Positions 2,846-29,958 of a DNA stretch of 64,000 nucleotides are shown piece after piece; positions within the stretch are counted from its first letter, which is position 1; each line of letters begins with the position of its first letter. A program made the position numbers and the translations under genes. The DNA is taken from assembly GCA_018389105.1 (NCBI GenBank), contig JACATO010001108.1, positions 62,001 to 126,000 of the forward strand, in the 5' to 3' direction. A model generated the notes under the pieces. The model had not been told where the DNA came from. It saw nothing but the letters and a program-made list of their open reading frames with translations, and ran no database searches. This DNA is from Nautilus pompilius. Taxonomy: Eukaryota; Mollusca; Cephalopoda; Nautilida; Nautilidae.

Positions 2846-5800
2846 CTAAATAAAGAAAATTTCAGAATTAAACTGATGTACAACGTATGCCACAGCACTA
2901 GAAAATCAAGGGAGCGTGTGATGACAAGTCAAAGAATAATTCAGGTTACATCATGCACCAAAAAAACTGTTTAATAAATCCTTGTTTCTGCTGGTTGGGT
3001 CAGGGGGTCAGTTCTGTGGAAGAACAAATCCAATTTAGTACATAATTTTAAAAAAATGAGAGAGAAGCTACATGCAAATAGAACACAGGAGCAGAAATGC
3101 TTTCCTTACCCGTTGGAGCAGCACAGTTGTTGATCACAGAAATTTTTTTTAAAACTTTCCAAGCTTCTTCTTTCTTTCCCTTGACCATGAGAAATCTAGG
3201 GGACTCCACATTAATGAAGAGCCGCAAGACGAGAGTGAAGAGAAAGGGTGTGGCACAAGCTCCCACGAAGTACCTCCAGCCGTATTTAGGCAGGATAAAC
3301 CAGGCCATGGCGCCAGCAAACGCCGCTCCTCCTGTGCCGCACATAGTAATCATTATCATGTAGTTGCGTTTCTGAAGTGGGAAAAACTCTGAAAATAAAA
3401 AACCCAGGCAATAACCAAGGAAAAACCTATTTCGGCATTGGAACAAGCAATTAAACTGCGTGGATGAATGGAAAAGTGAAAATATCTCCGTCCATCAAAG
3501 GAAGGTTTCATATTGTAGCTTTCAAGAAACTGTAAGCATAAACAAAACTCAGGATTTTATGCTAAGATGTAATTTCTGGCGCGTGTTCCTTTTATTGGTG
3601 CGCAGAAAATCTAACACTAGAATGTTTTCAACAATAATACAGTTTAAAAACTTAGAGGACAGCTCTCTACCACATTTAAACTGAGGCCCCTCTTAAACAA
3701 CGAAGCACCCCCATTTCACCAAGAATCCTTAAATGCTATTGATATAGAGATCTACTCAAAGTGGAATGATCATCTTATGATAACATGTACAAGGAGCCAG
3801 TGCATGAAATATTTTGCTATTTGCAAATAAGTCTTGTAATTGGGTGCTCAGACTGTGATCAAACAAAGAAACAGATGGCTTGACTATTAAATGCCTCATT
3901 TTTCGGTTACTGCTAGGCACAAGTTACCATTAGTCCCCAATGGCCTGGAAGGCTATCAGTGATCACGACTTACTCAGCAAACCATTGTAGCCTTTATCAA
4001 CTCATGGGAAAGCATTGAGAATTCTGCAAACTTGAAAAAGTAATGCAACGTTCTCCATAACTTTTGGTAGCATGAAAACTCTTGCATACAAAAGCCAATG
4101 CAGAAACAGCTGAAGCCAGCAGATGAGCATCCTCAATGCAAAACTGTTTGCAAGTTTCCTATGAAGAGTCCAAATTCCCAAAGTTTAATTCCAATGGCCA
4201 CATGAATGTGAAAACTTGGAAATTTATTTTATCTCACTTGTTTACAGCCAGAAGTGCAATGGTCTGGGGAACAGACTGAGCTGGTTAAGCAGCTTGCTAT
4301 ACTGTATTTCCCACTTATGTAGTTCTGCTATAAAAGTTGATATAGTCATCAAGCTGCTTCAATCTACAAACCCAATATTGATATCATTCTCATATATTAA
4401 AAAAAGAACTGGTCCCAAAACAGCAACGTTGTACTTCCCATCTTTTAGAAAACTGACGGGCAGCATGACAGTTCTGGTTATTACTAATACTTAAATACCC
4501 CCCTTCAAGCAAATTCCAATGAGAAGCTACATCAAAATATTTCACTCTACAGGTCAAATGCCAGCCACATTCCCACTGTTAAAATATAGACTTAAATTAT
4601 TCAGATGTTTAAAATTTGGTAAGATATATGTATATACACCCAGGTGACCAAACCTGTGGACTCACAATTGAAATTTTCCTTATTTCACATATAATCAATT
4701 TATTAGTACATTATAATGACTGTTTGAGACAAAAAAAAAACATATTTGACATTTTGATAAGTTTATTTTGGAACTTTTCAAAAAATCATATACACCATGA
4801 TTCCTGAGATATGTCCTTGGTAAATCCACAGTTACTGCCACCAGTGTGTGCATGTACATATAAGCGCTATATCTTTTTTTTTTCTTTTCAATCTTTTCTC
4901 AAAGACCAAGTTAAATTTTTCTGCTAATAACTTGAACTATAACTACTCAGCAATATGCACCTTATACCCACCAAACAATGAAGCTTCATATCTTTCTAAA
5001 AGGACACAATCAAATGTAGAATGGAAGTAATTTGTTAATAGTGTCCCATGACCTGCAAAATTCTTCATTCACAAACAGGTACTTAAAAAAAAACAACAAA
5101 AAAACAAACTATGTATATTTTGTTTCATTTCCATACAATACAAATAATCAGAGGGGTTAGAAATTTTAAAACTTATAAATGGTCCCTTTTGCCTATATGT
5201 TGTTTCTTTTTCCTTAAAAGTTTAATATTACATTTGTTCTCAATTTAGTTTTTCCCTTTTCAAACTGCTGACAATTTGAGATCAGTTTCACGTCAAATTT
5301 AAACATTTAACCATCCACATAACTAATGTCCATTTACATTTTTCATTCCCATAGGCCATTTTTTTGAACCTATCATTAATGGTTATTTATCTATTTTCAT
5401 CCACCTATAGGAAAATGTCAAAAGAGTTAGCATTTAAACTCGCAAGACTAATTACAAATACAGGCAGTCCCCGACTTATGAATGGTTTCGGTTCCTGTAC
5501 CCGGTTTGTAAGTCAGAACAGTATTAATTCCATGTGTTCGGTTACAACACAATCCTGCCCATACAAAACAAAATGCAGAAAACAGAGCAGCTAAGTTCCG
5601 AGAAACATACACAAAATGCTGCGGACCAGTGGACTGTCTGTCTGTCCGTTGTTGTTGGTGGGACGTGGAACCCCAACCGCCGAACAAACTAGTGCTGCAC
5701 CTGTTCATAAGCACCAGCAAATAGCCTTAAGTCGAAACTGGTTTTTGTGATGAGTATATGGGATCTCGTTCTTAAGTCGGTGACTGCCTGTATCTAACTT

Positions 5801-8800
5801 CAATTGAATAAACTACAGAGGATGCCTAAGTCAAACCAAAATCTGTAGGGGGAAGGGGGCAGGTGGCAGCACTACTTAGGTGCTTTTCAAAAACATTACA
5901 CACCAACAAGTTTCTAAATCTCCATTGGGGTGGGGGGGAGGAAACATAAGAGAAATTACTTTGAAACATCGGGAAACAGTAAATGGGCAACCAATAACGC
6001 TAAACAGTTATCCTAGCTATAACTGTCCCCTCCCCCCGACCAAACCATGAGAGAAATTACCCTGAAACATCGGGGGAAACAGTAAATGGGGACACCAAAC
6101 GGTTATCCTAGCTATAACTGTCCCCTCCCCCCGACCCAACCATGAGAGAAATTACCCTGAAACATCGGGGGAAACAGTAAATGGGGAACCAATAACGCTA
6201 AACGGTCATCCTAGCTATAACTGTCCCCTCCCCCCGACCCAACCATGAGAGAATTACCCTGAAACATCGGGGGAAACAGTAAATGGGCAACCAATAACGC
6301 TAAACAGTTATCCTAGTTATAACTGTCCCCTCCCCACGACCCAACCATGAGAGAAATTACCCTGAAACATCTGGGAAACAGTAAATGGGCAACCAATAAC
6401 GCTAAACAGTTATCCTAGTTATAACTGTCCCCTCCCCCCGACCCAACCATGAGAGAAATTACCCTGAAACATCGGGGGAAACAGTAAATGGGGACACTAA
6501 ACGGTTATCCCAGTTATAACTGTCACTTCCCCCCAACCCAACCACGAGAGAAATTACCCTGAAACATTGGGGGAAACAGTAAATGGGCAACCAATAACGC
6601 TAAACGGTCATCCTAGCTATAACTGTCCCCTCCCCCCGACCCAACCATGAGAGAAATTACCCTGAACATCTGGAAACAGTAAATGGGCAACCAATAACGC
6701 TAAACGGTTATCCTAGTTATAACTGTCCCCTTCCCACGACCCAACCATGAGAGAAATTACCCTGAAACATTGGGGGAAAACAGTAAATGGGCAACCAATA
6801 ACGCTAAACAGTTATCCTAGTTATAACTGTCCCCCCCCCCTGACCCAACCATGAGAGAAATTACCCTGAAACATCAGGGGGAAACAGTAAATGGGCACAC
6901 CAAACGGTTATCCTAGCTATAACTGTCCCCTCCCCACGACCCAACCATGAGAGAATTACCCTGAAACATCGGGGAAACAGTAAATGGGGACACTAAACGG
7001 TTATCCCAGTTATAACTGTCACTTCCCCCCAACCCAACCACGAGAGAAATTACCCTGAAACATTGGGGAAAACAGTAAATGGGCAACCAATAACGCTAAA
7101 CGGTTATCCTAGCTATAACTGTCCCCTCCCCCCGACCCAACCATGAGAGAAATTACCCTGAAACATCGGGGGAAACAGTAAATGGGCAACCAATAACGCT
7201 AAACGGTTATCCTAGTTATAACTGTCCCCTCCCCCCGACCCAACCATGAGAGAAATTACCCTGAAACATCGGGGGAAACAGTAAATGGGCAACCAATAAC
7301 GCTAAACGGTTATCCTAGTTATAACTGTCCCCTCCCCCCGACCCAACATGAGAGAAATTACCCTGAAACATCGGGGGAAACAGTAAATGGGGACACTAAA
7401 CGGTTATCCCAGTTATAACTGTCACTTCCCCCCAACCCAACCACGAGAGAAATTACCCTGAAACATTGGGGGAAACAGTAAATGGGCAACCAATAACGCT
7501 AAACGGTCATCCTAGCTATAACTGTCCCCTCCCCCCGACCCAACCATGAGAGAAATTACCCTGAAACATCTGGGAAACAGTAAATGGGCAACCAATAACG
7601 CTAAACGGTTATCCTAGTTATAACTGTCCCCTTCCCACGACCCAACCATGAGAGAAATTACCCTGAAACATTGGGGGAAACAGTAAATGGGCAACCAATA
7701 ACGCTAAACAGTTATCCTAGTTATAACTGTCCCCTCCCCCCCTGACCCAACCATGAGAGAAATTACCCTGAAACATCAGGGGGAAACAGTAAATGGGCAC
7801 ACCAAACGGTTATCCTAGCTATAACTGTCCCCTCCCCACGACCCAACCATGAGAGAAATTACCCTGAAACATCGGGGGAAACAGTAAATGGGGACACCAA
7901 ACGGTTATCCTAGCTATAACTGTCCCCTCCCCCCGACCCAACCATGAGAGAAATTACCCTGAAACATCGGGGGAAACAGTAAATGGGCAACCAATAACAC
8001 TAAACGGTTATCCTAGTTATAGCTGTCCCCTCCCCCCCTGACCCAACCACGAGAGAAATTACCCTGAAACATCGGGGGAAACAGTAAATGGGGACACCAA
8101 ACGGTTATCCTAGCTATAACTGTCCCCTCCCCCCGACCAAACCACGAGAGAAATTACCCTGAAACATCGGGGGAAACAGTAAATGGGCAACCAATAACAC
8201 TAAACGGTTATCCTAGTTATAACTGTCCCCTCCCCCCCTGACCCAACCACGAGAGAAATTACCCTGAAACATCGGGGGAAACAGTAAATGGGGACACCAA
8301 ACGGTTATCCTAGCTATAACGACTGTCCCCCCCCCCCACTCACGGACCCCGGCGAACAAAGCTGCTACCTATTGGAAGGATAAAGGCGACAGCAGCCAGG
8401 CCGCCCCTGCCGAAGGCCACGAGGGACCGGAAGAGCACGAGGACGACGAAGTTGGTCGCCACGGACGAGGCGACACCGAAGACGCTGCACACGAAAACCG
8501 CCAGGGCGAAGGTGAGCTGCCGTCCGTACTTGTCGCTGAGCACCCCCAGGAGGTACTGGCCGGCGATGCAGGCCACCCCGTTGAAGAAGGGGAGCCAGGG
8601 GAACACCATTTCCCGGAGGTGCCACTCCAGCTGGACGGGCTTGCTGAGGAAGACGAACACCATGAGCTCGCTGCACACGGCGAAGTAGGCCGTCCCGCCG
8701 AGCAGCAGGACCAGGACGTGGAACCGTCCGAACTTCAGGTCCGACAGGACGTCGTCCAGACTCCTCTCCTCCTCCTCCTCCTCCTCCATGTTCAGGCTGC

Positions 8801-8885
8801 TGTACTGGGGCGGGGGCTCTTCTTCCTCGGGGCTCGACGACCCCCCGCCGCCGCCGAGACAGATGTCTTCGTTGGTAGCAGACAT
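2151..8885 (-). CDS. SVOP-like: SV2/SVOP-like major facilitator transporter (gene span, 3 coding exons)
   Basis: Predicted polytopic membrane transporter of the SV2/SVOP branch of the major facilitator superfamily; substrate unknown. Joining 8885-8369, 3388-3110 and 2845-2151 gives 496 aa with no frameshift (splits G|AG for Glu173 and G|GG for Gly266). The N-terminal tail is Gly- and Glu-rich with an eight-codon acidic run near residues 34-40. The MFS motif A loop GVLSDKYGRQ lies at 114-123, an ESPRFL-type motif at about 234, and the second-half motif PELYPTTVR at 406-414. Hydrophobic segments fill both halves. The family is about 490-550 aa, so the gene looks complete. There is no long SV2-type luminal loop, which favours SVOP/SVOPL over SV2. 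The second-half motif A is weakened (LGRIR after IEKHM). Family call is firm; the exact orthologue (SVOP, SVOPL or a lineage-specific copy) is uncertain. Confidence 0.85.
3110..3388 (-). CDS. SVOP-like: SVOP-like exon 2 (residues 173-266)
   Basis: Acceptor TTATTTTCAG precedes 3388 and donor GTAAGG follows 3110. It encodes EFFPLQKRNYM, two membrane segments, LPKYGWRYF and VESPRFL, which is the central part of the transporter before the cytoplasmic loop. The splice phases fit both neighbours. Confidence 0.88.
3389..5460. other. Intron 1 of the SVOP-like gene, distal part
   Basis: Two kilobases of AT-rich intron. No domain-bearing ORF, RNA gene or clear repeat was recognised before the inverted-repeat element starting at 5461. 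Short ORFs here have no recognisable content. Confidence 0.5.
5461..5790. mobile_element. 330-bp MITE with terminal inverted repeats and TA target duplication
   Basis: The left end reads CAGGCAGTCCCCGACTTA at 5461 and the right end is its near-perfect inverse, ending at 5790. TA flanks both sides (5459-5460 and 5791-5792). No transposase is present. The termini and TA duplication point to a non-autonomous Tc1/mariner/pogo-type element. The superfamily is inferred from the ends only. Confidence 0.8.
5930..8337. repeat. Minisatellite, about 24 copies of a 91-103-bp unit
   Basis: Tandem copies of a unit containing GAGAGAAATTACCCTGAAAC, a GGGGGAAACAG stretch, AATAACGCTAAACGGTTA and a C-rich block. 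Two length classes alternate: a long form with GGGCAACCAATAACGCT and a short form with GGGGACAC. A distinctive variant (GTCACTTCCCCCCAA) recurs near 6520, 7018 and 7420, suggesting higher-order structure. The array lies inside the first coding intron and ends about 31 bp from the exon 1 donor at 8369. Confidence 0.95.
8369..8885 (-). CDS. SVOP-like: SVOP-like exon 1 (start codon, residues 1-172)
   Basis: ATG at 8885, an acidic, Gly/Pro-rich cytoplasmic tail, then the first membrane segments and the motif A loop at 114-123. The donor GTAGCA follows 8369. Coding GC content is much higher than in exons 2 and 3, consistent with a CpG-rich 5' end. The longer ORF in the next frame over 8365-9024 is an overlap artefact of this GC-rich exon. 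Confidence 0.85.
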
Positions 8886-9350
8886 GTTTATTTGTTGTCT
8901 CTCCGCCGCCTGTATCCGGTGTCCGGGGAAAATCTGTACCCGATACGAAACCCGCCCGGGGCCTCCCTCCTCTCTCCCCCTCCCTCACAGTTAACCGTCT
9001 GAAAAACCCCATATTTAAGTTCACACCTTGTTTCCCGAGGTGGTCGGCCCCCAGAAGGGCTTCAACTTATTCGTCTTCGCCTGAAATAAATTAATTAATT
9101 AGTGGGGAGGGGGAGTCAATACAGAGTGCCAGCTACGCTTTTTGTTGAAATGTGCATTTAAATCGTAATTCTTTCCCTTAAGTCCATCAAGAATAATGAA
9201 TAGGGTAAAGGGGTTTGGTGAGAGTTTATAGGGGGTGGGGTACTGCCCGCCCCAGGTTGTTGTTGTTGGGGGGGAGGGGGTTAATAATAAATGGCCGCCT
9301 CGGTTGGGAGGGATCCTGTTAGTGACACCGGTCCGAAAGAAATGGCTCGT
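8886..9350 (-). promoter_or_regulatory. 5' leader and CpG-rich promoter region of the SVOP-like gene
   Basis: GC- and CpG-rich sequence just upstream of the start codon (densest at 8886-9060), grading into G-runs and AT-rich DNA. It is the likely transcription start area. No TATA box at a convincing distance or defined start site can be read. Confidence 0.45.
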
Positions 9351-13872: not shown

Positions 13873-13977
13873 CTAGAACTCGTCATGTTGAGTCAACGCC
13901 TCCCCGAAATCTGTTGCTTGGCTGCCAACAAACAGGTCATATTTGTCCAGAATTTCCTGTTTACTCAGCTTACCATC
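13873..13977 (-). CDS. CALU: Calumenin last exon (EF6 end, HDEF, stop)
   Basis: Acceptor CTTTTTTCTAG precedes 13977. It encodes [27 protein letters not shown] and the terminal HDEF, with TAG at 13873-13875. It starts in phase 0 and completes the EF6 loop begun in either alternative exon. The block [18 protein letters not shown] is almost invariant in calumenins. Confidence 0.95.
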
Positions 13978-16900
13978 CTAGAAAAAAGCAGCAAAACATA
14001 AGAAATGTGAAATAATGCAGAATTTATAATAATATTAAATAAACAACTTGAGAAACTATGGACAAAGAAACCAGAACTTCAGTTTAAAATTATTCATATA
14101 TATATATTAGTAATTCAGTTCAAATTTTGTATGTTTTTAAAATTACTTTCCAAAGATCTGTTTTAGGCTGATCTCTGCTCATCCTACTTTCCACGAAGCA
14201 TTATCTCAAATAACTTCACTCAAAACACCTACACATACTCTGCAGAATCAATTTTTACTATTCTATAAGTCTGAAAATTGGTTGATCTGTACATTCTGAA
14301 AGCGAACGTTGTTACTTCTTTGGTCACAGTATCATCCTGCAACAATTCCCTGTAAAACAGACACAAAACAACATCCCTAGCTACAGAAGGTGTGGCATTC
14401 TATTTCCTAATTCTAGATTTCCCATAAATTACTGGATTCATATTATTTGCAAGTCTTTTATACAAGCCGTGTTAAGAATCACATGAAAATATCAACTTGT
14501 CTTTGTCATTCATATTAAGGAAAGCTTCTTACCAAGTAATAAGTTATTCATGACATTTTTCATGTCAGTACCTTTAAAATCTGAGAGAGAATAAATTAAA
14601 GATTACAGTAATTTAATTTCGAATGTTACTAATAATAGAGAGCATTCAAAACCTTCAGGCTTAGTTACCAGTACATAAAACACCTCTACTACAAATGAGC
14701 TTGCACATCAGAAAACATGGCATAATGATGCTAATGCTAATTCAAGTGATTGCTGCACTTAATTATTCTTAAAAGCCATTCGTGTACCAATTTAATTTTA
14801 CACACTCAGCAAATATGATGCTAAACATACAACAATATAAAAACAATATTGTAAGCATAGTAATCATTTCTTATATAAATAAAACACTTTTTCTTTCTTC
14901 CAACATGGCAGCCAGTGACAGCTACACAGATTCCCCGTTTTAAATCAACAGGTTAGAGTTATGCTCTTCGTAGACTTAATGTCCATCAAATTTGGAAATC
15001 AGAGCCTCCCAAAAAAAAATCGGCAAATCGCATCAACCCACAAAGATACCAGTTGACAATAAGGCATAAGAGCGGTTCAGAAGTTCCACCAAGCAGGAGT
15101 GTCCCATGACAACGGCAGTGTACGTTTGTCACCAATAGAATCTCAGGTCACAGGGTTGGGGAGACGGCTGTTGGGAACAAAGTGACACACACAGAAAAAA
15201 ATGGTGCAGCAGCTGATGTATCCCGACTTTCCAGTGCTACCCCCAATACTATCTAAGACATCCAGAACATAGACTTAAGCCTCTGTCATCCCAAGAGGGC
15301 AAACTCAATGAGACATGTGAAGGAATTTAAAAACAATATGGAAAAATTGCACGTAGGTGTGGGCTACAAAACCCAGAACCTAATGGCAGTGTTGTCACAC
15401 TACACATGATTTGTCACAAGTCAGAAACAACTGCCCAGTTATTAAACAGATTAATCAACAAACTGAGTCATCTAGCATTTTCTGGTCTAAACCCGATGTC
15501 ACCTGAGGCATAATAAACCCATGCATTCTCATTAACCCCCCCCCCACCACAAACTGAAAAGTCGAGATGGGTGCGTCAATAGCAACTAGAGCAGCGTAGC
15601 AGTTCAGTTAAACACTAAAACATTGGATACACACAAAGCATAAGATAGTTGGTAAAACTAGTTTAAAGTCTGTTAAATGGACCACCCTGGGCTTATGTAG
15701 CAATCTTAGTCACTTTTCATTTTCTGTAGTTTCCAAAAAGCAGGACAACCACACCACAATGAAATCATCTGAATCACCAAGTTCAGCATCACTGTCAGAT
15801 TAATCAAACATCGTAACTTGTTTTTGCTGCCTCAAATTTTTCACATTTTAAGAACATTTTAGTAATAATTACTGAACTCCCACCAGCTCCCAACATGGCT
15901 GAGGATCAGCGAGCATCTCTCCAGTTGATTTTATATTGCAACAGGTATTAATGTGATAAATTTAAACATCACTTGTTTGAAGGAAAAATATATATATATA
16001 TATATGAAGTTTTGTGAACTAATTAAAACAAATTTCTCAGTATTTTAAGACCATAATAATAGGCAGCGAATATCAGTATTATTTACTTTAGATTCCAAGT
16101 GAGAAATCATAAACAAACAGTCCCCAAAGAATTTGTTAGGAGAGATTCAGAATATAACACAAACATAAACAGTTTGTATTGCTCTCGAAGAAGCTGTGAC
16201 CTGGAAAAATTAGAGATGCTCAACCGCCACCCTGCTCACTGCTAAGCAAGACCTCATTTTGTTTTAAAGCATCTAGAAAAAGCATTTCTCAGCAGTCTCT
16301 ATAGTATGTGTTTGGGTAGATTACTCATCTTCTACAAACAGCAGGCAAAGGTAGCCTCCTTTCTTTCTTTTTTAAAAGGTGTAAGGAGTAGGAAATTGAG
16401 AAGGAATAAAGCATCCACTTTCTTGATTGGGGCTTGAATTACTTCCTCAAAATATATGTGAATACAGTATTAGAAACAATTATGGAAACACTAACAGAAT
16501 ATGCACAAATAGTGAGTAGTTGTGGCTAAAAGATGTATATTATAGATTCCCAGTGCACTATTACAGAAAATATTTTTTTAAAGAAAACAACAAAATAAAT
16601 ATTATACAGTGCATTAGTATTTGGTATGTGACCTCTTGTTTTCATGCTCTCATATAGGTTATCAGTGTGTGGCTGTGGGATGTTGTTCCAAATACCCTGT
16701 AGCACTTTCCACAATTCATTCAAGGTTTGGTTGACATCTGAATTTCTCAGTAGCCGTATAACTAACCCCAATGTAGCCTCAGTGATGTTTACACTAGGAC
16801 TTTGTGCCGGCCAAAACATCCTTGACGTATTCCATCAACCTCTTTATGGTCCAGATAGTTTTCCACCATGTTGGCAGATGATTTCCTGCCAATTGAGATG

Positions 16901-19900
16901 TCTTCATGAATGGCATCATGGATAAGATCTGCCTCTAACTGTCAAAAGGCAGTATTATGCAAATCTCTAACAACCTTGGCTGACATGTAGCCCAACACAG
17001 GTAGTGCTCCGCCCTATGCTTCAAGGTAGCTGTTGTACACTGAGTGTCATACTGCTCTCCATTCTGACTTCAAACAGTTCAAGCTTGGACTCCTCTGTTA
17101 AAAGCACTTTGTTCCAGGTTTGGTCATCTGTTTAATTTCTGCTTCCAATTTCATCTTTGCTGTTTGCTTACCTTTCCTCAGCAAAGATTTTCGGGCATCT
17201 ACAACTGACACTATTTCGCACCAATGCATATCTTACTGTTCTTAAAGAAATGTTAACATGCACACTTGTAGCTACTTTATTTGCAAAATCTCTACTAGTT
17301 CTTCATTTATCATGTAGAGAACACACCAAGATACTTAACATCACTTTTGTGGAGTTTGTGGACTTTCTTCCTCAACTGCATCTATTGTCAACAGTACCAG
17401 TTTTATGTATCCACTTCAGTCTTGCTTACAGCTTCTTTTGAAACATGAAACTGGATTGCAATCTGCCACATCCTTAATGTGTGATATTTCCTTCCCAGGA
17501 GCCACAGTATGTACCATACTATAATATCACTACCTACACCTACATAATCCCTCCACAGGGACACTTTCTGACCAATCACAGTGCACTACCAAACACATGA
17601 CCACTGTCAAGTTTTTCCTCTCTCTGTTTCTATAATTATTTCCAATACTGTATATACAATAATAAAGTGAATGATTAATATTTGCAGACCACTCTACCTA
17701 ATCTCCATCACAAGAGGTAGAAACTGACATTCTCCTCCTTTTCGCTGGGTAACAAGTTACCAGCACCACGTTTCAGTGTGCACAAGGAGCAGACAATTCA
17801 CAAATTCAGCTATCAGTCAGTCGAAAAACTGTTCCTATCTTGAAGAAAACAGAAACAAGAAGTGAATCATCTGCTTATTTGCTTTTGGTATAATTCTGCT
17901 GAAGACATACACATGGCGCAATCTGTCTGCTGTGACACACACGTTTGGTTAATTGAAGCCCAGCTGTGAGATCACCATGAGAGTGATAAGCTCTATGAAC
18001 TCTTACTGGGGGTATTTGAAATAAGACTAGTCATGAAAAACAAAGCAATATATATATAAGGTGGCCTTTTCTTTCTTTAATATAAGAAAAAAAAAATAGA
18101 TTTTTTTTTTTTTTTTTTTTGATTAATTAAACGAGTTTACAGAACAGATGGTGGTACAAAACAAATGCAAGCAAAGAATTCCATTATTTCAAATGTCACT
18201 ATATTAATTTTTTTGCAGCATGCTGTGGTTTTATTATAAACAAGCAGAGAGAAAGAGTTTTAAGATGGCATTAACTTAAATTTGTTTCCTTTGGAAAGAC
18301 AAACAAATTTCTTTTGGGGTGGAAGGGAGGAAAGACGCCTTCCTTTGTAAGCAGAGTACACCCTGTTCCCAACAGTTCCCAGTCCAAGAAAAGCATATCT
18401 ACCAACCTTGTCACTGTCAGACTCATGAATTAAGTGCTTGGCTTCAGCCTGTGTGTGATCGTAATCTTGTGGCAGGAGCCAGTCCTTCACTTCATCTTTG
18501 TCCATTTTCCCATCGGCGTTTTTATCACGAAGCCCCATAAACTGTTCTCGTTCATTTCTGACCCACTCCGGATCCTCCTCCCCCTCTTTGTCATTGGGCC
18601 ACATGTCACCTAGAAAGGTCGAATCACAAAGCCAACGATGAAACACCACAGTTGAAAGTGCATCAAAGATGAGACAACAAACTACACACCTTGTCAGCAT
18701 CTGCTGATTTAACCAGATGCACCGACTCTGTGTCACTGTGGTCACGCTCCTCTGGAATTATCCAGTCCATCACTTCATTTTTATCCAATCTTCCATCTTT
18801 ATTTTTGTCCCGGAAATTCAGGAACTGCTCCTTCTCTTTAGCAACCCATTCAGTGTCTTTTTCGTCGTCGTCGTCCTCGTCGTCTTCATCCTCATCCTCA
18901 TCATCATTCCCATAGATATCAGCTATGAACGCAAGTCAAAACTCGTGTTAGCACGGTTTCTGCATGCAACCGTAAACAACTTAAGTCACCGCTACTAGAC
19001 ACCTGTGAATCACATAAAATGACCAGGTTGGCCATACATCAAGAGAGCCTCAAACATTGGGTTTCCGGTGAGTAGGAGATAAGATTGACAGCATTTCATC
19101 AGAGGTAAAAAAGAGGAAATCCTGACATATCCCACTGGCTTTGGAGCATGTGCAGATTCAAGACAAAAATGGAAGCATTATTTTCTGGTATTTATTTAAC
19201 TATGATACTAGCCAAAAATTTGGGAGTAAACAAGCAATTTGGAAAACTTGTTATATTGAAATAATTTGTTAAATAAAAATTTAACAGTACATACCTTTAA
19301 AAACTGAAAACATATTTACACCCAAACACTACTCTCTCTCTTTTTAAAGTCCAGGCATCAAAACACTGGTGTCACTGAGTTCCAAGATATAGAGATGACG
19401 TGGCACTGCCACAAAGATGCTGTGCTATTCTTCTCACTTCTGTCAATTTCAACCCACAGAAGTTTGAGGGGAGGCAAATCTGGGGATTTTGCCAGCCAAA
19501 GCTCTTTTAAGGAGAGAATACCTGCTTATTCCTCCTGTTTCATATACACTCTTCATAAATGCTAAGAGCAGTACCCCATAATTATTATTAGAGGGTTGTT
19601 GATTATTATCTGTTTTGCTTGCTTAACAATGTAAAGTTACTGTAGATGATACTGGCTTTTGTCCTGCTTCACTTTTTTAATTCATTCTTACCAAGCAGTT
19701 TTCCTTTTAACAATCAAGACTAAAGGATCACACCAGGCTACTGTTGCTATTATACTGGCATAAGACATGTCCTGTCACCTGAGTAGTCAATTGTTTAAAG
19801 TACCCGTAGCAAGTCTTACAGTAGTTTACTTGTCTCACTATTTTGATGAAAGTAATGTTAGAGTATAAATAAGTTAAATACGTCATCGTTTAAATACTAT

Positions 19901-22398
19901 TTCATTATTTTTTTGTTAAGTTTTAACCAATAATTTCAATATAACACACATGGTTGAGTTTTTGTCCAAAGACTTAGCCAGTAGTGTATAGCTCCTGCCT
20001 TGTGAGCAGTATAATAAGTGGATATAAGGGGCCAATGAGCCATACCTCTATAAACAAGCATCTTTAAGCACATTCTGTCTTTTTCAAGTGAGATGCTACG
20101 TCAAACTTCCAGTATTTTCCCTCAACAAAGCTATCATCATCTTTGAAAAAAAAAAACAACAAACAAACAAACCTTTCTTCTGTAAAAATCAAAGTTTATA
20201 AAGATGCTTCAATATCTTCAAAACAGCCAAGTCTAGGGGAGGATGCCTGTAAGTAAGACTCCATGATTTTAACAGTCTAACAAATCAACTGTAATTAAGA
20301 AGAACAGAATACCAGGTCTGGACGATAGTCTCTCTCATCATACTCAGATGTGCGCCTCGTTAGCTGTCGAGCGAGAGCTGGACCAACTGACCTCGACTGG
20401 TTACCGTCTCCTCCACTATCACCCAAAGATGGGGCCCTTACTGCTGGTTCTTTAAAGTAAAAGCAGCCAAACCTCCGGCTGAGAAAGATGCTAAGAATGA
20501 CAACAAAAATTACCCTAGATCTTCTAACTAAAGATAACCGCCAACACAATGCAGCAGACGAACTGAAAAGTAGGTGTGAAAAAGAGATGCTCTGGACTGA
20601 TCTTACTACCTCAATGGTGTCAGCAACTGGGAGCAAGGCATCAAACAGCTGACTGGAAAACAAAACGTGGCAAATGAAAAGGATGTATTATGCCAAAATC
20701 ACTAATCACCGTTATAGCTGCTTCAAGAGTCAATGAGCAAACGCAGAGTCCTCCTGCTCCACCCAGTAAAGTCAGAGGTGGGCCACCGACTGGACTTACC
20801 ATCAGATTCATAATAGCAATCTTTATACGAGAGATATTACTGCTTCAGTAAATAAAACAACAGTAACACCACAATTAAAAAATACAAATTCACTTGCTTG
20901 TGCTAAAAGCAGAGTACCATTCAGGTACTGCTTCAATAGACCTCTGATGTTTTACATAGAATATCTCTCTCTCTTTTTTTTTCAAAGAATATAAAATCTA
21001 AATTTCTCAAAGTCTGTCTAAGTATTGTGGGGAAAGCATTCATCAGGTGAGCGAAGACAAGAGGATGCCTAAGTGTGGCACGTCCTCTCTGAAGTTGTCT
21101 ACAACAGTGGTGTACTACAAAATTTCAGAGCAGAGGCTCATCAGAACTGATCCAGTCAGCAGTAAAAAGAAATTCCAATAAGGCAACTTATTGAAGATCC
21201 TGATTAGGTGAAAAATAAATGCACAGAACACTTTTAGTTCAAAATAAATCATTAGAAGGAAACTTACTGATGTATTCTTCCAAGCTAACAAATCCATCTT
21301 TGTCTTTGTCAATGTCTTCTAGAGTTTCCTGGTGAGGAAGAAAATAAAAAAAAAAAAAGCCATTTGGTTCAAGACACGACAAAGCTGTGTAGAGTTCTGG
21401 CTTCATGTAAAACGTCTACAAGGGAGACCACCCTGGCGAGTGAAGTGCTGCAGCTGTCTGCTATAAAGCATCGCCTATCCTGCAACTTCTGACTGCCAAG
21501 GAAGGAAATTCCGAGTTTTCATTTTTTAGTTGGAGTTCCCTGAACTGGTGATGAAGAGTGAGAAGAAACCAAGGTGACCAGGAATCAAACTCAGCCTCCC
21601 TCCTCCCCAACCTCAGCAGTCTAACAGTCTTTCACCCTACTCCGAACTTCCAGTCTCCCCAGCTTCTCATTAATAATCGTAACAATTTTCATCTGCATGC
21701 CTACAGGTAGTCATAACTAAACTTAAAGAAGTTTTCCAAACCCAGTAAACATCTAACAAAAAAACAGCCTTTAGATCCAGGTCACCAGTACCCAGGTATA
21801 ATATAGGGGTCATAGGCCCATTTTAATCAGTTTGATTTGATGTACTTCCCACCATTTGTAATAAAACAGGTTAACTTCAGAGGTACACCACTTCCATGCA
21901 TGTTAAAATTAAAGAATAAAACAAACCAGAGAGTAGACGATTTGAATACTTCAGGGTGTAATGATCAAAGGAACTACTTCCCCTCTGACTAAAATCATCT
22001 TTTTTTTCCTTCAGCTGCTGTAAGTTCCACCATTAAATGCTGTTACATACTCACCATCACTACTACATCCTTCATGTGGTCAGCTTCCTCAGGATGAAGA
22101 AAATGCCGAAATTCTTCTTTCGACAAGAGGTGATCACCATTTAAATCTGCCTTTTCCCATCTTCGTTTGTCTCGAACAATCATTTCTTTATAGACATATT
22201 TTTCATCTTGAGGCTCAATATCTGAGAATAAAGCATCTTCATACCTTATACAAGGACTTAATGAATAACAGCAACACAGGCCAAGTTTTGGAGAATAAAA
22301 ACGTTTTCTAAACAAGGCATTATTAATCTCTGTGCTTCGGTACCATTAACAGCAAGTTCTTACATCTTGAATTTGTTTATGAATTAGGCATTTTAAAG

Positions 22399-22431
<33 letters not shown>

Positions 22432-24642
22432 TCAATAACTTGAAGTGGCAGGGACCTACCAAAATACTCTGTTTGACATCAGAAGTTGACTTTTTAATCT
22501 TAGTTACTGGTTTATATTCTTTGGTGATAATTGATACATAAGAATACTGAGGTCTTTTTATGTTCCCTTGCATTTTTGTTGTTCAGCTAAGTGTCTATAG
22601 TCTTATCAGCATTTCTAAGTTATGTGAAAAAAGTATTTGGAGAAATTTCAAACTGCTTTGCTATATTTTACTTTCTCAATCCTCTTTCAAATATGAGAAT
22701 CCCTGATACTGTCTTAATTTTGTGAGTCCACAGTTTGTTTATGTGGAACCATGTTGACATGCAAGTTGTGCATCTTATAGATAGATGGGCTGCACCTTGT
22801 CATTATCTGACAAATTAGTAAAGTAATTAGTGTCATTGGCAATCAGTGACTACAAAAAGATATTCATGGTTTCTTAACAAACATTTGGCAAATTGCAATC
22901 AAAAATCAATCATCCATTGTCAAGTGACAAACTATGAGTTATAAGAAATTAACATGAAATTATATTTTGAGGAACTAAAGAATGTCTCAACTCATCCAAC
23001 TTTGAGTGAATTAGAGTTTCCATAGTTTTTATAATGGGTGAGAAGCATTTTGTTAAGGCCTGGGTCTCAAGTTATTGAGTCTACTGTATCTATCTCCTGT
23101 ATGACTCAGACTGATGTTTTAGTTAGGCAAAGGTTTATTCACAATATTTAAAGTTTCTTATATTACAATAAATATACTAAATATACGTAAACACATCAAA
23201 GATTGCAGAGTCATCAGAACTGCTTAAAATCATGTCTGGGCATATATACACAGTAACATGGGCAATCCGTCAGACATTGAATTTTTAAAAATGAACTGCA
23301 ATAACATTGGTAGCTTGCTAAGGTACTGCAGATGTGTTCTAATAAAATGTATCCTTTATAAGAAAATTTAAATAAAGAGAACAATCTTAAATCAGACAAA
23401 TGAGCAACAAACAAGATGTGTGTAGACTCACCTTCTTCCTGAAAGCCAAAGGTCCTTTTCTTAAAGTTCTCCCATTTGAGCTGGTCAATTTGACCCTCTG
23501 ATTCAAACTCTTTCCACCTCTCCTCTGTATTTTTCACCATATATTTGTTTTGCACATACTTGATCCATTCTCTCAGCTCATCTTCTGTTACAGAGCCATC
23601 TTTATCTTTGTCCATCTTGTCGACAATTATTCTGTAAAAAAAAAAAAAGACTGAGCTCTTTTCAGGAGAACAGGCAGAATAAATCCAACCAGATCAGCCA
23701 GATCCATGAGACACACCTGTTAAGTCAAGATGACAATAGTGATAGTCATATGGATCCATTTTATTACATCCTAAATTATATTAAAAGAAATAAAACGATT
23801 CTGACTTTTTCACCCAAATGGTTAGAATTTTGCTAGCAGCAGCGAATTTTTAAAAAGTTAGCAAACTAGGAAAAAACTTTCAATTTCATGCTAAATAATT
23901 AACCAAAAAAATTTCTCTTATGCTTCTCCATCAAACATTAGGACGACCTGCTGTACTGAGAGATAAAATGTTGTCGACTAATGTGTTGAATTGGTAATTA
24001 TCCACAGGAGAAGCAATCACAGAAAACAGAGAGAATGGTCACCATTCTGCACCCTGTAGCTTCACAACACCCAGCAATAGCTGAGTAGGCTGCAGGTTAG
24101 CAACGCTAGAACATCCGGGTCTTCCTCTTAAGCGATGCGCACATCTACAAAAAGCACATTCTAATAGTCTCTCTCCTAATAGTTTGCAAAAAAGCAAGAG
24201 AAAGCCGTCACAGCCCTCTCAGACGCCACCACTCACCCTAATCTGTCCCTGCTCTCCTCAGGAGACAGCTTGTCAAACGCTTGAGCATCCTCGTGTCCCA
24301 ATATCGCCTCGTGGTCATAGTCGGTGTTGTGCTCACCTTCTTCCTCGTGGGTTTTTTCACTTAATTTCTGAAAGCAAATCAAATGCAAAAAAAAAATTCT
24401 TTAAAAACTCAACAATGGGAAGAAGGGCTGCTGGCTTCAGAACAGGGACATGGGGAGAGAACCACTACTATTTACTAGACTTTCCAGTTTAAAGAACAGA
24501 ACCAAATGTGAAAACCTTCCCGACGACGAAAAAAGAAACGAAGTACCGAAAACAAGCCCTGTCAGGCTACACACAGACTTCTCAACTAACCACAATTTGT
24601 TTTCTTACTGAAGAATTCGCACTTGTAAAAATTCATCGGGTT

Positions 24643-24673
<31 letters not shown>

Positions 24674-27600
24674 TGTGTGGTTGTGTGTGTGGTGTGTGTG
24701 TGTGTGTGTGTGTGTGCTCAAGCCTCGCTGGTACCTAAACCTGACCCGCCAACTGAAACCTGTACCTTGATCGTGCTACATGACAAGCATTAACTACACT
24801 CTCATTACTAATATAGCTGGACTGATTTTTATGGATAACTGCTGAAAGACAAGAAAGAAATATATATGTAAAAATCCATTTCAAATTAAAGAGAAAAATG
24901 CAGATGGAACTAAGTAGGTTTAATTTGTGAAATTTTTTATTTTAGCAGTCATAAGATGCACCATTATAAAACATAGTTATTACAATAAACATGCAATCTT
25001 TCATTTACCTGAGAGAGCATCAGTATCTGCATGTCATTAAATCTGCTTAGTAGGGAATGAGACAACCACAAATCACACGTATTTTAAAATTTTTTAAAGA
25101 TTAAGGGCACGGTAGTAATCCGGTGTGGACCGTGAGATTGCTAAGGTTGAGACCCCGAGTTAGATTTCCGTGGAGGGGGGACCGGCTCAGTCAGGCATAG
25201 CTCCCTGGCACGGTTTCTTCTCATTCTTAGTCACTAGGAGGCAATGCAAGTTTCCTTCCACATCTGAACAGATTAAGAGCTCTAGAGGGTTTTTTCCTGC
25301 CAAGGCCCAAAGCACCAGCATCCACATGACGCAGGGGGACTGGCAACGCTCCAAAGCAAATAACCATTGTGATCTGCTTCCTCACCAGGGTGGTCTCACT
25401 TGAAGACATCGGGACATTGGTGAATAAGGTTTGAGATTTGAAAATCCGAAACATTTTCTCTAGTTTAAAATGCAGTTTACATAAAACATTAAAAGATTTA
25501 GATAAAATATAATAAAATAGCCAACAACAACAGTAGAGAGAGAGCGAGAGAGAGAGAGAGAGAGAGGAGAGATGACGTCAGTACATAGAGAGAGAGAGGA
25601 GAGATGACGTCAGTACATAGAGAGAGAGAGAGAGATGGAGAGAATGATGGAGAGAGAGAGGAGAGAAGGATGGAGAGAGAGATTGAGAGAAGGATGGAGA
25701 GAGAGATGGAGAGCAGGATGGAGAGAATGATGGAGAGAAGGATGGAGAGAAGGATGGAGAGAATGATGGAGGAGAGAGATGGAGAATGAGGAGAGAGAGA
25801 TGGAGAGAATGATGGAGAGGAGATGGAAGAGAGATGGAGAGAGAGATGGAGAGAGAGATGGAGAGGAGGTGGAGAGAGAGATGGAGAGAGAGATGGAGAG
25901 AGAGATGGAGAGAGAGATGGAGGAGATGATGGAGAGAGAGATGGAGAGAAATGATGGAGAGAGAGATGGAGAGGAGATGATGGAGAGAGAGATGGAGAGA
26001 GAGAGGGAGAGAGAGATGGAGAGAGAGAGATGGAGAGAGAGATGGAGAGAATGATGGAGAGAGAGAGATGGAGAGAGAGATGGAGAGAGAGAGATGGAGA
26101 GAGAGATGGAGAGACTGATGGAGAGAGAGAGATGGAGAGAGAGATGGAGAGAAGATGGAGAGAATGATGGAGAGAATGATGGAGAGGAATGATGGAGAGA
26201 TGTGGAGAGAATGATGGAGAGAAGATGTGGAGAATGATGGGAGAATGATGGAGAGAGCGATGGAGAGGAATGATGGGGAGAATGAGGAGAGAATGATGGG
26301 GAGCGAGATGGAAGATTGAAATGATGGGGGAGAGAGATGGAGAGATGGAGAGAGAGAGCGAGATGGAGAGAGAGAGAGAGATGGAGAGAGAGAGAATGAT
26401 GGAGAGAGAGAGAGAGAGATGGAGAGAATGATGGAGAGAGAGAGAGAGATGGAGAGAATGATGGAGAGAGAGAGAGAGATGGAGCGAATGATGGAGAGAG
26501 AGAGAGAGATGGAGAGAATGATGGAGAGAGAGAGAGAGATGGAGAGAAGGATGGAGAGCGAGAGAGAGAGATGGAGAGAATGATGGAGAGAGAGAGAGAG
26601 ATGGAGAGAATGATGGAGAGAGAGAGAGAGATGGAGAGAATGATGGAGAGAGAGGAGAGAGATGGAGAGATGATGGAGATGTGAGAGAGAGAGGAGGAGA
26701 ATGATGGAGAGAGAGAGAGAGGAGGAGAATGATGGAGAGAGAGAGAGAGGAGAGAATGATGGAGCGAGAGAGAGAGGGGATGGAGAAGAATGATGGAGAG
26801 GAGAGAGAGATGGGAGAATGATGGAGAGAGGAGAGAGAGCATGGAGAGAATGATGGAGAGAGAGAGAGAGAGGAGAGAATGATGGAGAGAGAGAGAGAGA
26901 TGGAAGAGAATGATGGAGAGAGAGAGAGAGAGGAGAGAATGCTGGAGAGAGAGAGAGAGGAGAGAATGATGGAGAGAGAGAGAGAGAGCGAAGAATGATG
27001 GAGAGAGAGAGAGCGAGGAGAGAATTGATGGAGAGAGAGAGAGAGAGGAGAGAAATGATGGAGAGAGAGAGAGAGAGGAGAGAATGATGAGAGAGAGAGA
27101 GAGAGGAGAGAAGGATGGAGAGAGAGAGAGAGAGGAGAGAATGATGGAGAGAGAGAGAGAGAGGAGAGAATGATGGAGAGAGAGAGAGAGAGGAGAGAAT
27201 GATGGAGCGAGAGAGAGAGAGGAGAGAATGATGGAGAGAGCGAGAGAGAGGAGAGAATGATGGAGCGAAGAGAGAGAGGAGAGAATGAATGGAGCGGAAG
27301 AGAGAGAGGGAGAGGGGCGAAAGAGAATGATGGAGAGAGAGAGAGAGAGGAGAGAATGATGGAGAGAGAGAGAGGAGAGGAGGAGAGAATGATGGAGAGA
27401 GAGCGAGAGGAGAGAATGATGGAGAGAGAGAGAGAGGAGAGAATGATGGAGAGAGAGAGAGAGGAGAGAATGATGGAGAGAGAGAGAGAGAGGAGAGAAT
27501 GATGGAGAGAGAGGAGAGGAGAGAATGATGAGAGAGAGAGAGGAGAGAATGATGGAGAGAGAGAGAGAGGAGAGAATGATGGAGAGAGAGAGAGAGGAGA

Positions 27601-28458
27601 GAATGATGGAGAGAGAGAGAGAGGAGAGAATGATGGAGAGAGAGAGAGAGGAGAGAATGATGGAGAGAGAGAGAGAGGAGAGAATGATGGAAGAGAGAGA
27701 GAGAGGAGAGATGATGGAGAGAGAGAGAGAGGAGAGAATGATGGAGAGAGAGAGAGAGGAGAGAATGATGGAGAGAGAGAGAGAGGAGAGAATGATGGAG
27801 GAGAGAGAGAGAGGAGGAGAATGATGGAGAGAGAGAGAGAGGAGAGAATGATGGAGAGCGAGAGAGAGGAGGAGAGAATGAGGAGAGAGAGAGAGAGGAG
27901 AGAATGATGGATGAGAGAGAGAGAGGAGAGAATGATGGAGAGAGAGAGAGAGGAGAGAGCGAGAGAGGACGTCAGTACATAGAGAGAGATGGAGAGAATG
28001 ATGGAGAGAGAGAGATGACGTCAGTAAATAGAGAGAGATGGAGGAGAATGGAGGAGAGAGAGAGATGACGTCAGTACATAGAGAGGATGGAGAGATGATG
28101 GATGAGAGAGAGAGATGACGTCAGTACATAGAGAGAGATGGAGAGAATGATGGAGAGAGAGAGATGACGTCAGTACATAGAGAGAGATGGAGAGAATGAT
28201 GGAGAGAGAGAGATGACGTCAGTACATAGAGAGAGATGGAGAGAATGATGGAGAGAGAGAGATGACGTCAGTACATAGAGAGAGAGAGAGAGGAGAGATA
28301 TTAAACCTAAATCGGTAGCAGTACTCGCTCACCTTGTCGTATACCCTGTTCTTGTTTGCTTCATCTGGCTTTGGTATGGCTGAGCACCAGGTAGTGGCTA
28401 CTAAGGCCAAAACAAAAAGACCACTATACAGTTTCATCACCTGACTGTTGTCCAGCAT
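13873..28458 (-). CDS. CALU: Calumenin-like EF-hand protein, secretory pathway (gene span, 7 exon positions, one duplicated)
   Basis: CREC-family luminal calcium-binding protein. Exons at 28458, 24367, 23631, 22221, 21328, then either 18922 or 18609, then 13977 join without frame errors. From the Met at 28437 this gives 323 aa (downstream alternative exon) or 333 aa (upstream one); human calumenin is 315 aa. Residues 1-20 form a signal peptide ([20 protein letters not shown]). EF loops are: EF1 after 85 ([12 protein letters not shown]), a degenerate EF2 near 120-130, EF3 ([12 protein letters not shown]), EF4 ([12 protein letters not shown]), EF5 in the alternative exon, and EF6 split across the last junction (DGKLSKQE). 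The C-terminus HDEF matches the calumenin retention signal, which separates it from HDEL reticulocalbins. An in-frame Met at 28458 would add seven residues before the signal peptide. Confidence 0.93.
13978..16464. other. Calumenin last intron, part 1
   Basis: AT-rich intron. The stretch 14900-15480 is less AT-rich and may be an old repeat, but no family was recognised. A C-run lies near 15536-15545 and an (AT)n run at 15989-16005. Confidence 0.5.
16465..17650 (-). mobile_element. Tc1-like DNA transposon, 1186 bp, decayed transposase
   Basis: Ends are inverted repeats beginning CAGTATTRGAAAYAATTAT, with TA on each side (16463-16464 and 17651-17652), the Tc1 signature. On the minus strand the C-terminal transposase reads WPAQSPSVN...[14 protein letters not shown]...LYESMKTRG (16526-16819), matching the Tc1 block around the last catalytic acid. 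That acid's usual context (LNPIE) has become VNITE. Upstream fragments such as [10 protein letters not shown] and the N-terminal HTH part are broken by stops. It is inserted in the calumenin intron on the gene's sense strand. Confidence 0.88.
17651..18406. other. Calumenin last intron, part 2
   Basis: Non-coding, with A/T homopolymers near 18088-18120. The ORF reading through 18260-18406 is donor-side intron read-through of the alternative exon. Confidence 0.6.
18407..18609 (-). CDS. CALU: Calumenin alternative exon 6A (EF5, downstream copy)
   Basis: 203 nt, start phase 1 and end phase 0. It encodes [36 protein letters not shown] (EF5) and the start of the EF6 loop, ESDSDK. Acceptor CCTTTCTAG; donor AAG|GTTGGT, a weak match to consensus. 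It is the copy closest to vertebrate calumenin in this region (DPEWV, REQF, DYDH.EAE). It is homologous along its length to the exon at 18690-18922, only 80 nt upstream in sense orientation. Confidence 0.93.
18690..18922 (-). CDS. CALU: Calumenin alternative exon 6B (EF5 with acidic insert, upstream copy)
   Basis: 233 nt, same start and end phases as 6A. It encodes DIYGND, then a 14-residue uninterrupted Asp/Glu run followed by KD, then [24 protein letters not shown] (EF5) and SADADK. Acceptor GTTCATAG precedes 18922; donor AAG|GTGTGT, also weak. Codon pattern and EF-hand residues are intact, so it looks functional and not like a relic. Protein identity to 6A is partial, so the duplication is old. 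Confidence 0.9.
18923..21267. other. Calumenin intron upstream of the alternative exons
   Basis: 2.3 kb, mostly AT-rich. A minus-strand ORF at 20295-20663 has a charged tail but no recognised domain and no fitting splice phase. Nothing else supported. Confidence 0.5.
21268..21328 (-). CDS. CALU: Calumenin exon 5 (EF4)
   Basis: 61 nt encoding [20 protein letters not shown], the EF4 loop with canonical Asp/Gly/Glu positions. Acceptor TTCCTCACCAG; strong donor A|GTAAGT. The single leftover A joins to GT (Ser) or CT (Thr) in the two alternative exons. Confidence 0.95.
21500..21660 (-). mobile_element. SINE-like fragment (tRNA-derived, tentative)
   Basis: On the minus strand a GAGTTTGATTCCTGG box resembles a pol III B box, with TGTTAGACTGCTGAGG upstream as a possible A box. 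It is followed by GGTTTCTTCTCACTCTTC, shared with the element near 25105-25420. Ends are not defined. Confidence 0.4.
21661..22054. other. Calumenin intron between exons 4 and 5, remainder
   Basis: No feature recognised beyond ordinary intron sequence. Confidence 0.5.
22055..22221 (-). CDS. CALU: Calumenin exon 4 (EF3)
   Basis: 167 nt, 55 full codons. It encodes [20 protein letters not shown], the EF3 loop [12 protein letters not shown] and the family signature [15 protein letters not shown]. Acceptor TATTCTCAG, donor GTGAGT, phase 0 at the 3' end. Confidence 0.95.
22222..23431. other. Calumenin intron between exons 3 and 4
   Basis: AT-rich with a (CA)n microsatellite at 22400-22429. Nothing else recognised in 22430-23431. 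Confidence 0.6.
23432..23631 (-). CDS. CALU: Calumenin exon 3 (EF1 and degenerate EF2)
   Basis: 200 nt encoding [18 protein letters not shown] (EF1), then [18 protein letters not shown] and a second EF region reading [15 protein letters not shown]. The latter lacks the normal Asp/Asn ligands and is shorter than in vertebrate calumenin. Acceptor TTTTTACAG, donor GTGAGT. Confidence 0.94.
23632..24236. other. Calumenin intron between exons 2 and 3
   Basis: Plain intron; no repeat or conserved element recognised. Confidence 0.5.
24237..24367 (-). CDS. CALU: Calumenin exon 2
   Basis: 131 nt encoding [43 protein letters not shown]. The DYDHEA.LG and LSPEES.DRLG blocks are family hallmarks just before EF1. 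Acceptor GCTTTCAG, donor GTGAGT. Confidence 0.94.
24368..25533. other. Calumenin intron 1 of the coding part, 3' portion
   Basis: Contains an interrupted (TG)n microsatellite at about 24642-24716 and the SINE-like element at about 25105-25420. The rest is AT-rich intron. Confidence 0.6.
25105..25420 (+). mobile_element. SINE-like element (tentative)
   Basis: GGGCACGGTAGTAATCCGG followed about 35 bp later by AGGTTGAGACCCC resembles degenerate A and B boxes. A CGGTTTCTTCTCATTCTTAG core matches the fragment at 21500-21660 on the other strand. GC content is above the surrounding intron. Family not identified. Confidence 0.4.
25534..28298. repeat. 2.7-kb GA-rich satellite (GAGAGATGGAGAGAATGATG-type units)
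   Basis: Nearly uninterrupted purine tract on the plus strand made of GA dinucleotides with interspersed ATGG and AATGATGG. The unit length drifts through the array (about 12 bp at the left, about 26-30 bp from 26340 to 27950). Both ends carry longer units with TGACGTCAGTACATA. It sits in a calumenin intron, its right edge about 34 bp from the donor of the signal-peptide exon. The pre-mRNA therefore carries a very long UC tract. The long ORFs in it (such as 410 codons at 25610-26842) are repeat artefacts. Confidence 0.97.
27967..28270. promoter_or_regulatory. Array of TGACGTCA (consensus CRE) sites at about 50-bp spacing
   Basis: Perfect palindromic TGACGTCA at 28016, 28066, 28116, 28165, 28214 and 28263, plus a GGACGTCA variant at 27967. 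Two more lie at 25573 and 25605 at the far end of the satellite. The octamer is the consensus CREB/ATF site. Regulatory function is inferred only; the sites are part of a tandem repeat. Confidence 0.55.
28333..28458 (-). CDS. CALU: Calumenin first coding exon (signal peptide)
   Basis: Acceptor CTGTTTCAG precedes 28458. The preferred ATG at 28437 gives a 20-residue signal peptide and [15 protein letters not shown]; the exon's very first bases are also an in-frame ATG (MLDNSQV before it). Donor AAG|GTGAGC. The acceptor implies an upstream non-coding exon. Confidence 0.92.
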
Positions 28459-28578: not shown

Positions 28579-29958
28579 TCAGGTCATTACAAACGTTTTG
28601 TCAGTTTTTGTATTTTGCAAATTTGGGGTTCATATTTTGCCTGCTTGTGAAGGTATATGTAAGTAAGTTATATATATTGTTTTGTAGCGTGTGCTTCGGC
28701 ATACATTATGCAAAATCTACTCTCTCAAAAATCATAAAATGGATATTTGTTTCAGGGTTCTGAGTGAAGCATGGATAGAAACGTTTTTCATGCCATTTTG
28801 CTTCATGAGTTCAAACCAGGCCACAAAGCGAGCGAGGAAACTCGTAACATTAAACAAGCATGGGACGAGGACACAGAAAATGAGCACACAGTACAACGAT
28901 GGTTTACAAAGTTTCAATCAGGAGATGTGAGCCTCGAAGATAAGGAATGTAGCGGACATCCTACCAGCTGTGATGACAACCTTCTGAAAACCTCAAATGA
29001 AGCCGATTCAAGAAAAACAGTGAGAAATTGCTGGAGAACTTAATGTAAGCACTGCAACTGTTTCCTGGCATCTTGACGCAATTGGCAAAGTGAAAAAAGC
29101 TTCAGAAGTGGGTGGGTGCCTCACAAACTGGATGAACAACAAAATCATCGATTGGAGATCTGCCCTTCGCTTGTCATAAGAAACAAAAATGACCCATTTC
29201 TTGACCAAATCATTGTGTATGAAAAATGGCTCCTTTACGACAATCACAAACGATCAGCACGGTGGATCGACAGAGACAATGTGCCTAACCACTTTCCAAA
29301 ACACAGCCTCCAATCAAAGGAGGTTATGGTCACTGTCTGGTGGACTGCAACTGGTGTCATCCATTACAGCTGAACAGTACTGTTGTGAATTAAGCATTGT
29401 TCATCACAAACTCCCAACAACAGCCAGCATTGGTGAATTGAAGAGGCCCGATCCTGCTCCACAACAATGCCCGTCCTCGTGTTGCAAAAGTGACTCTTCA
29501 GAAACTGAACACGTTGGGGTACGAACTTCTCTCTTACCTAGCCTATTCATCAGACCTTTCTCCCACAGGCTACCACCTCTTCATACACCCCAACATTCCC
29601 CTCAAAACCACATTCATAATATTAATCTTTTATTTAATGGGCCATAAATACTAAAGTATTTGTAAAATCAAATTATTCCCCTATGAATGTACCGTAAATC
29701 TAGATCCTGTTGATCGATAGCTTCCTCCGTGTGAAATCCTTCTCCAACTAAGCAGCAACTGAAGCTGCCTTCCAACAGTTTATTGACTCCAGAAATCCAA
29801 ATTTTTTTCAAAATTGTATAAATGCACTTGTAACTATTTGGCAGAAATGTAGTGATTGTAATGGAACTTACTTTGGTTAATAAACCTCATGTTCAGCAAG
29901 GATATGAAGTCTCATTGTTGCATTAAAAAAACCCGACAAAATTTTTGTAACAACCTAA
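28579..29958 (+). mobile_element. Mariner element, 1380 bp, inactivated
   Basis: Inverted repeats TCAGGTCATTACAAACG... (left) and the inverse of TTAGGTTGTTACAAAAA... (right), flanked by TA at 28577-28578 and 29959-29960. Plus-strand transposase pieces follow the Hsmar1/SETMAR-type order: HTH region AILLHEFKPGHKASEETRNI (28780-28850), VQRWFTKFQSGD with SLEDKECSGHP, then KWLLYDNHKRSARW and VMVTVWWTATGVIHYS (29220-29372), and a C-terminal WQKCSDCNGTYF near 29860. Frames shift several times, so it is non-functional. Length and TA duplication are standard for mariner. Confidence 0.92.

Follow-up and report, generated by a model that had tools for sequence, protein, structure and literature searches.

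Exon 6 of the calumenin-type gene of Nautilus pompilius was very probably duplicated in tandem long ago, and its sequence suggests that the two resulting exons, 6B and 6A, serve as protein-coding alternatives that are spliced one at a time. A preliminary description of this DNA had proposed that EF5 and the beginning of EF6 are encoded by two alternative exons whose separate use is enforced by the reading frame, and the gene model, a constraint test, and searches of the animal's own genome all agree with this proposal.

Gene Model and Reading Frame of the Exon Pair

The gene was located by tblastn with human calumenin in the window (the whole stretch of 64,000 nucleotides that was analyzed), and its model was completed by reading the flanks of the matches. 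Judging from homology along its length, its EF hands, and a C-terminal HDEF, the gene is of the calumenin type and belongs to the CREC family. The EF-hand pattern is matched by five of the six expected loops, the EF2 loop (23432-23631, minus strand) being degenerate. The human protein matched 6A at 60% and 6B at 41% identity. The gene consists of the following elements.

28458-13873, minus strand: calumenin-type gene (tblastn and reading of flanks)
28333..28458, minus strand: first coding exon, with a signal-peptide-like start judged by eye; an AG acceptor-like site lies directly before the ATG, and the 5' end is provisional
24237..24367, minus strand: exon 2 (tblastn and gene model)
23432..23631, minus strand: exon 3, EF1 and degenerate EF2; single version of this region found
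22055..22221, minus strand: exon 4, EF3 region
21268..21328, minus strand: exon 5, 61 nt, EF4 loop, one-base remainder at its end
18923..21267, minus strand: intron 5, 2345 nt, with a CTAAC branch-point candidate (A at 18948)
18922-18690, minus strand: exon 6B, 233 nt, phase 1 to 0, 77 residues after the split codon A-CT (T); acidic insert, EF5, and first 4 residues of the EF6 loop
18610..18689, minus strand: intron between 6B and 6A, 80 nt, GT-AG
18609-18407, minus strand: exon 6A, 203 nt, phase 1 to 0, 67 residues after the split codon A-GT (S)
13978..18406, minus strand: intron after 6A, 4429 nt
13873..13977, minus strand: coding part of exon 7, phase 0 start, from the remainder of the EF6 loop through the terminal HDEF and the stop codon

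The homologous exons had been placed 80 nt apart, and their coordinates and lengths were reproduced exactly. Within the window, tblastn aligned 6A with 6B at 50% identity over 62 ungapped residues (E = 1.1e-22), and identity across the whole alignment is 51%. Both are neighboring internal exons of similar length (77 and 67 aa), preceded by AG and followed by GT, with conserved splice sites and reading frame and without an in-frame stop.

The claimed phase match was also borne out, as exon 5 leaves a one-base remainder and exon 7 begins in phase 0 at 13977. When the exons were joined in silico, 6A alone gave a complete ORF of 330 aa from ATG to HDEF and stop, and 6B alone gave one of 340 aa. 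Inclusion of both exons shifts the frame and leads to a stop 40 codons into 6A, just where the preliminary description had it, 80 nt upstream of the last junction. Omission of both shifts the frame as well, as had been stated, with a stop 2 codons past exon 5, and retention of the 80-nt intron results in a stop shortly after 6B. Mutually exclusive splicing would be made safe by this reading frame, both exons or neither giving a frameshifted message. A stop upstream of the last junction is expected to trigger nonsense-mediated decay, which would be the predicted fate of the message that carries 6B and 6A together.

The prediction of mutually exclusive exons, as outlined in PMC3228551, uses similar length, conserved splice sites and frame, and homology. 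Exons 6B and 6A show all three features, their length difference of 10 aa lying within the 20 aa allowed for neighboring exons; on the fly X chromosome, 90 of 16180 exons (0.56%) that are not annotated as exclusive share such features (PMC3228551). At the level of transcripts, exclusive exons are recognized by junction reads from each exon to both neighbors and by none, or only frameshifting ones, between the two (PMC5740500).

The stop in the double-inclusion message also bears on a different reading, in which 6B is mainly a poison exon: the frameshifted message would be degraded and thereby tune the calumenin level, while the 6B protein isoform would be unimportant. In its favor are the position of that stop, which precedes the last junction by 80 nt, and a 6B donor that outscores the 6A donor; however, a pure poison exon has no need of the full frame, the canonical EF loops, and the low pN versus pS found in 6B. 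We consider this reading improbable.

Selection on the Two Exons

Among the 62 ungapped codon pairs of 6A and 6B, 31 encode identical residues, and nucleotide identity amounts to 58.6% of 186 aligned bases. Over these codons pS is 0.99 (saturated) and pN is 0.29, and the differences at codon positions 1, 2, and 3 number 25, 12, and 40, respectively. For comparison, 2000 copies of 6A were simulated under a simple neutral model with uniform substitution and the same nucleotide divergence as observed. Of the 2000 copies, 140 were free of stops, and the best of these 140 had 24 of 62 identical residues versus the observed 31, so that the protein resemblance of 6A and 6B is more than chance. Since synonymous sites are saturated while the protein is conserved, the pair has long been maintained by purifying selection at the level of the protein, a result that comes from a pairwise test (6A versus 6B only) and is compatible with a recent loss of use of one exon.

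A recent loss is the essence of a second alternative, according to which 6B is a recently disabled copy, a pseudo-exon that is no longer spliced. Identity to human CALU is 64% for 6A and 48% for 6B, and 6B has a long branch in the exon tree, as would be expected of a decaying copy. Against this, 6B is free of stops, its GT and AG are intact, it has a CTAAC branch-point candidate and canonical loops, and synonymous saturation together with a conserved protein favors long retention, which makes the pseudo-exon very unlikely. By the same identities, 6A is the conventional version, closer to human calumenin. With 47% identity to 6A, 6B is about equally far from 6A and from CALU, and a date for the duplication is therefore not derivable from these distances. 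In the exon tree, built from 6A, 6B, and three human sequences, the human ones group at 56% support; the grouping of 6A with 6B only reflects this clustering and does not date the duplication.

Predicted Effect of the Exon Swap on the Protein

If 6B and 6A are used as protein-coding alternatives, the two isoforms would share Ca2+-binding EF5 and EF6. In both exons the EF5 loop is canonical, and so is the EF6 loop, of which each exon encodes the first four residues and exon 7 the rest; the Ca2+ ligands of EF5 and EF6 are, as read from the translations, retained in both forms. The 6B form would differ by gaining a polyacidic segment: 6B carries a 10-residue acidic insertion before EF5, and in the EF4-EF5 linker before the EF5 Trp 18 of 24 residues are acidic in 6B versus 7 of 14 in 6A. 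Helix residues differ between the forms as well. Through the polyacidic segment this form may bind additional Ca2+ at low affinity or interact with other partners in the secretory pathway. Structure predictions for the single exons, made with a two-sequence alignment, were of low confidence (mean pLDDT 58.6 for 6A and 59.9 for 6B); they place two helices around the EF5 loop in both exons, which at this confidence adds little.

GAN codons make up most of the acidic stretch, 16 of the 17 codons from 6 to 22 of 6B being of this type. According to PMC9177970, EF-hand codons raise predicted exon inclusion, centered on the Ca2+-coordinating residues, and GA-rich motifs that encode acidic residues are bound by splicing factors; the effect is not uniform, the Glu codon at loop position 12 being splice-repressive. 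From these findings and the GAN codons an SR-protein enhancer in the 5' part of 6B may reasonably be inferred. The choice between 6B and 6A would then be made by splicing factors acting on this GAN-rich part and on unequal splice sites.

Splice Signals

Donor sites were scored with simple patterns based on human 5' splice-site frequencies. Across the whole site, the donors of 6B (AAG/GTGTGT), 6A (AAG/GTTGGT), and exon 5 (TCA/GTAAGT) scored 5.04, 1.92, and 1.75 bits, respectively, while the other four donors of the gene ranged from 5.7 to 8.02 bits. The preliminary description had contrasted weak 6B and 6A donors with a strong upstream donor. This contrast is not upheld when whole sites are scored, the exon 5 donor being no strong site and being outscored by that of 6B; it holds only for the intronic half, where exon 5 reaches 5.35 bits versus 1.62 for 6B and -1.51 for 6A. 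In keeping with the description, the 6B and 6A donors both score below the other four donors of the gene. Acceptor pyrimidines (12 of 20 positions in 6B, 14 of 20 in 6A) are within the range of 11 to 18 found at the other five acceptors, and 6B is preceded at a distance of 25 nt by its consensus CTAAC branch-point candidate.

Within the 80-nt intron, the best-placed yTnAy candidate has its A at 18639, at distances of 50 nt from the donor of 6B and 29 nt from the acceptor of 6A; two further candidates, at 18663 and 18670, are 26 and 19 nt away from the same donor. As elsewhere in this gene, these branch points are pattern matches only. A steric limit of about 50 nt has been proposed for the distance between donor and branch point (PMC5740500, PMC7969005). 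Steric hindrance of 6B-6A splicing by the short intron is thus possible, and exclusivity may be helped by candidates whose distance from the 6B donor, 19 to 50 nt, does not exceed this limit. Since the best-placed candidate is right at the proposed limit, double splicing may nevertheless be physically possible.

A search for RNA pairing that would support exclusive splicing found none: pairing of the inner 65 nt of the 80-nt intron with intron 5 was matched or exceeded by 25 of 60 shuffles and pairing with the 4.4-kb intron by 13 of 60, and four local RNA folds gave z values between -1.13 and +0.57. Two further candidates were rejected. A stem-loop upstream of 6B appeared only in the short fragment 18980-18945 and was absent from a longer one. 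The hexamer TGCATG that starts at 18968, an Rbfox-type motif, was discarded as a signal, the window containing 21 and 30 copies on its two strands versus about 16 expected per strand at equal base frequencies.

Genome Context and Origin of the Duplicate

The assembly of the animal's own genome (728 Mb, 2558 contigs) was searched with 6B and with the whole 6A-form protein. The 6B query returned two matches at E<=0.001, 6B itself and 6A (all four candidates scored), and the whole protein returned ten, eight in the calumenin gene and two at one CREC-like locus on another contig, C308 (all 13 scored). The assembly thus holds one calumenin locus. The CREC-like locus is 33% identical to 6B, below the 50% between 6A and 6B, and its EF5-EF6 match continues across the 6/7 junction without an intron, which makes it an unlikely source of 6B. 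The duplication would most simply be internal to the calumenin gene. Although the CREC genes form a family and neighboring duplicates can be assembly errors, it is highly improbable that 6B was borrowed from a CREC paralogue or that it reflects an assembly error, because 6A resembles 6B more closely than does the only CREC-like paralogue found, and two exons alike at only 58.6% of 186 aligned bases are no collapsed or repeated read.

No processed message copy that would reveal the splicing was recognized among the own-genome matches. Pattern matches in a viral contig collection (99) and in prokaryote genome contigs (61) included none that could be confirmed, which is no surprise for such a gene in viral and prokaryote collections. 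Sequence searches of the PDB listed general EF-hand proteins, without calumenin or reticulocalbin.

Several other features were recorded in the window. An AG-rich repeat of simple and minisatellite type occupies about 2.8 kb (25535-28298) of the intron that follows the first coding exon in the calumenin gene, and upstream of that exon lie pieces of a Mos1/mariner-type transposase in two separate ORFs (28768-29373, plus strand; Pfam HTH_48 and Transposase_1). At 33044-35258 (plus strand) several ORFs are built of one tandem repeat with units like NTSIPAYRVIIYIVSSAL. An N-terminal exon of a VCIP135/VCPIP1-type deubiquitinase is found at 62667-63620 (minus strand; Pfam VCIP135_N and OTU), and a match to an OTU1 UBX-like domain at 48060-48341 (minus strand) may belong to the same gene. 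Three ORFs of the major facilitator/sugar-transporter type (2151-2861, 3048-3494, and 8340-8984, within 2151-8984, minus strand) are probably exons of one gene.

Comparison With Known Systems

The exchanged exons of vertebrate CALU cover EF1-2, whereas the Nautilus gene has one exon there (23631-23432) and its pair at EF5 to the start of EF6. A duplicated exon in the EF1-2 region was sought by tblastn and in the own-genome search, and a single exon was found. That vertebrate CALU has an exclusive exon pair, as the preliminary description had stated, agrees with the literature: between human isoforms 1 and 2, exons 3 and 4 are "exchanged" (PMC3325945), and the two exons are separated by a 73-nt intron (PMC7969005). 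A 2025 review gives another account, in which there are two copies of the gene that differ in exon 2 (PMC12516920). The human and Nautilus pairs are alike in gene family, in consisting of two exchanged exons, and in the very short intron between them (73 versus 80 nt); the vertebrate isoforms are, however, of equal length (PMC3325945), while the 6A and 6B forms differ by 10 aa. No description of an EF5-6 swap in calumenin was found among the papers listed by searches of open-licence PMC text, in keeping with the earlier statement that it is undescribed.

In alpha-actinin, the alternative exons 19a and 19b of ACTN1 change an EF hand, as 6B and 6A do, but there Ca2+ binding is lost in one version and the two exons occur together in a brain form (PMC4435478), whereas 6A and 6B both keep canonical loops and their joint inclusion breaks the frame. 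The mutually exclusive exons 4a and 4b of OGDH resemble the Nautilus pair in their short intron with branch points near the 5' splice site, and exon 4b, which contributes a DxDxD Ca2+ site, is skipped upon SRSF1 depletion (PMC7969005, PMC9177970). OGDH is a different protein, and its branch points were mapped by experiment, while those in the 80-nt intron are matched by pattern.

Since the exchanged pair of human CALU is a different one, the Nautilus pair looks like an independent exclusive pair in the same gene family. If 6B is used, exclusive exons would have arisen independently in different parts of the gene within one family, which would agree with the convergence of tandem duplicated exons in vertebrates, arthropods, and nematodes that is described in PMC9741552. 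More tentatively, calumenin may have gained mutually exclusive exons independently in two animal lineages at two places, the polyacidic swap at EF5 providing a high-capacity Ca2+ form for particular tissues, e.g., secretory or mineralizing ones. The two isoforms would also allow an EF-hand protein to be compared, in natural variants, in the presence and absence of a polyacidic neighbor segment.
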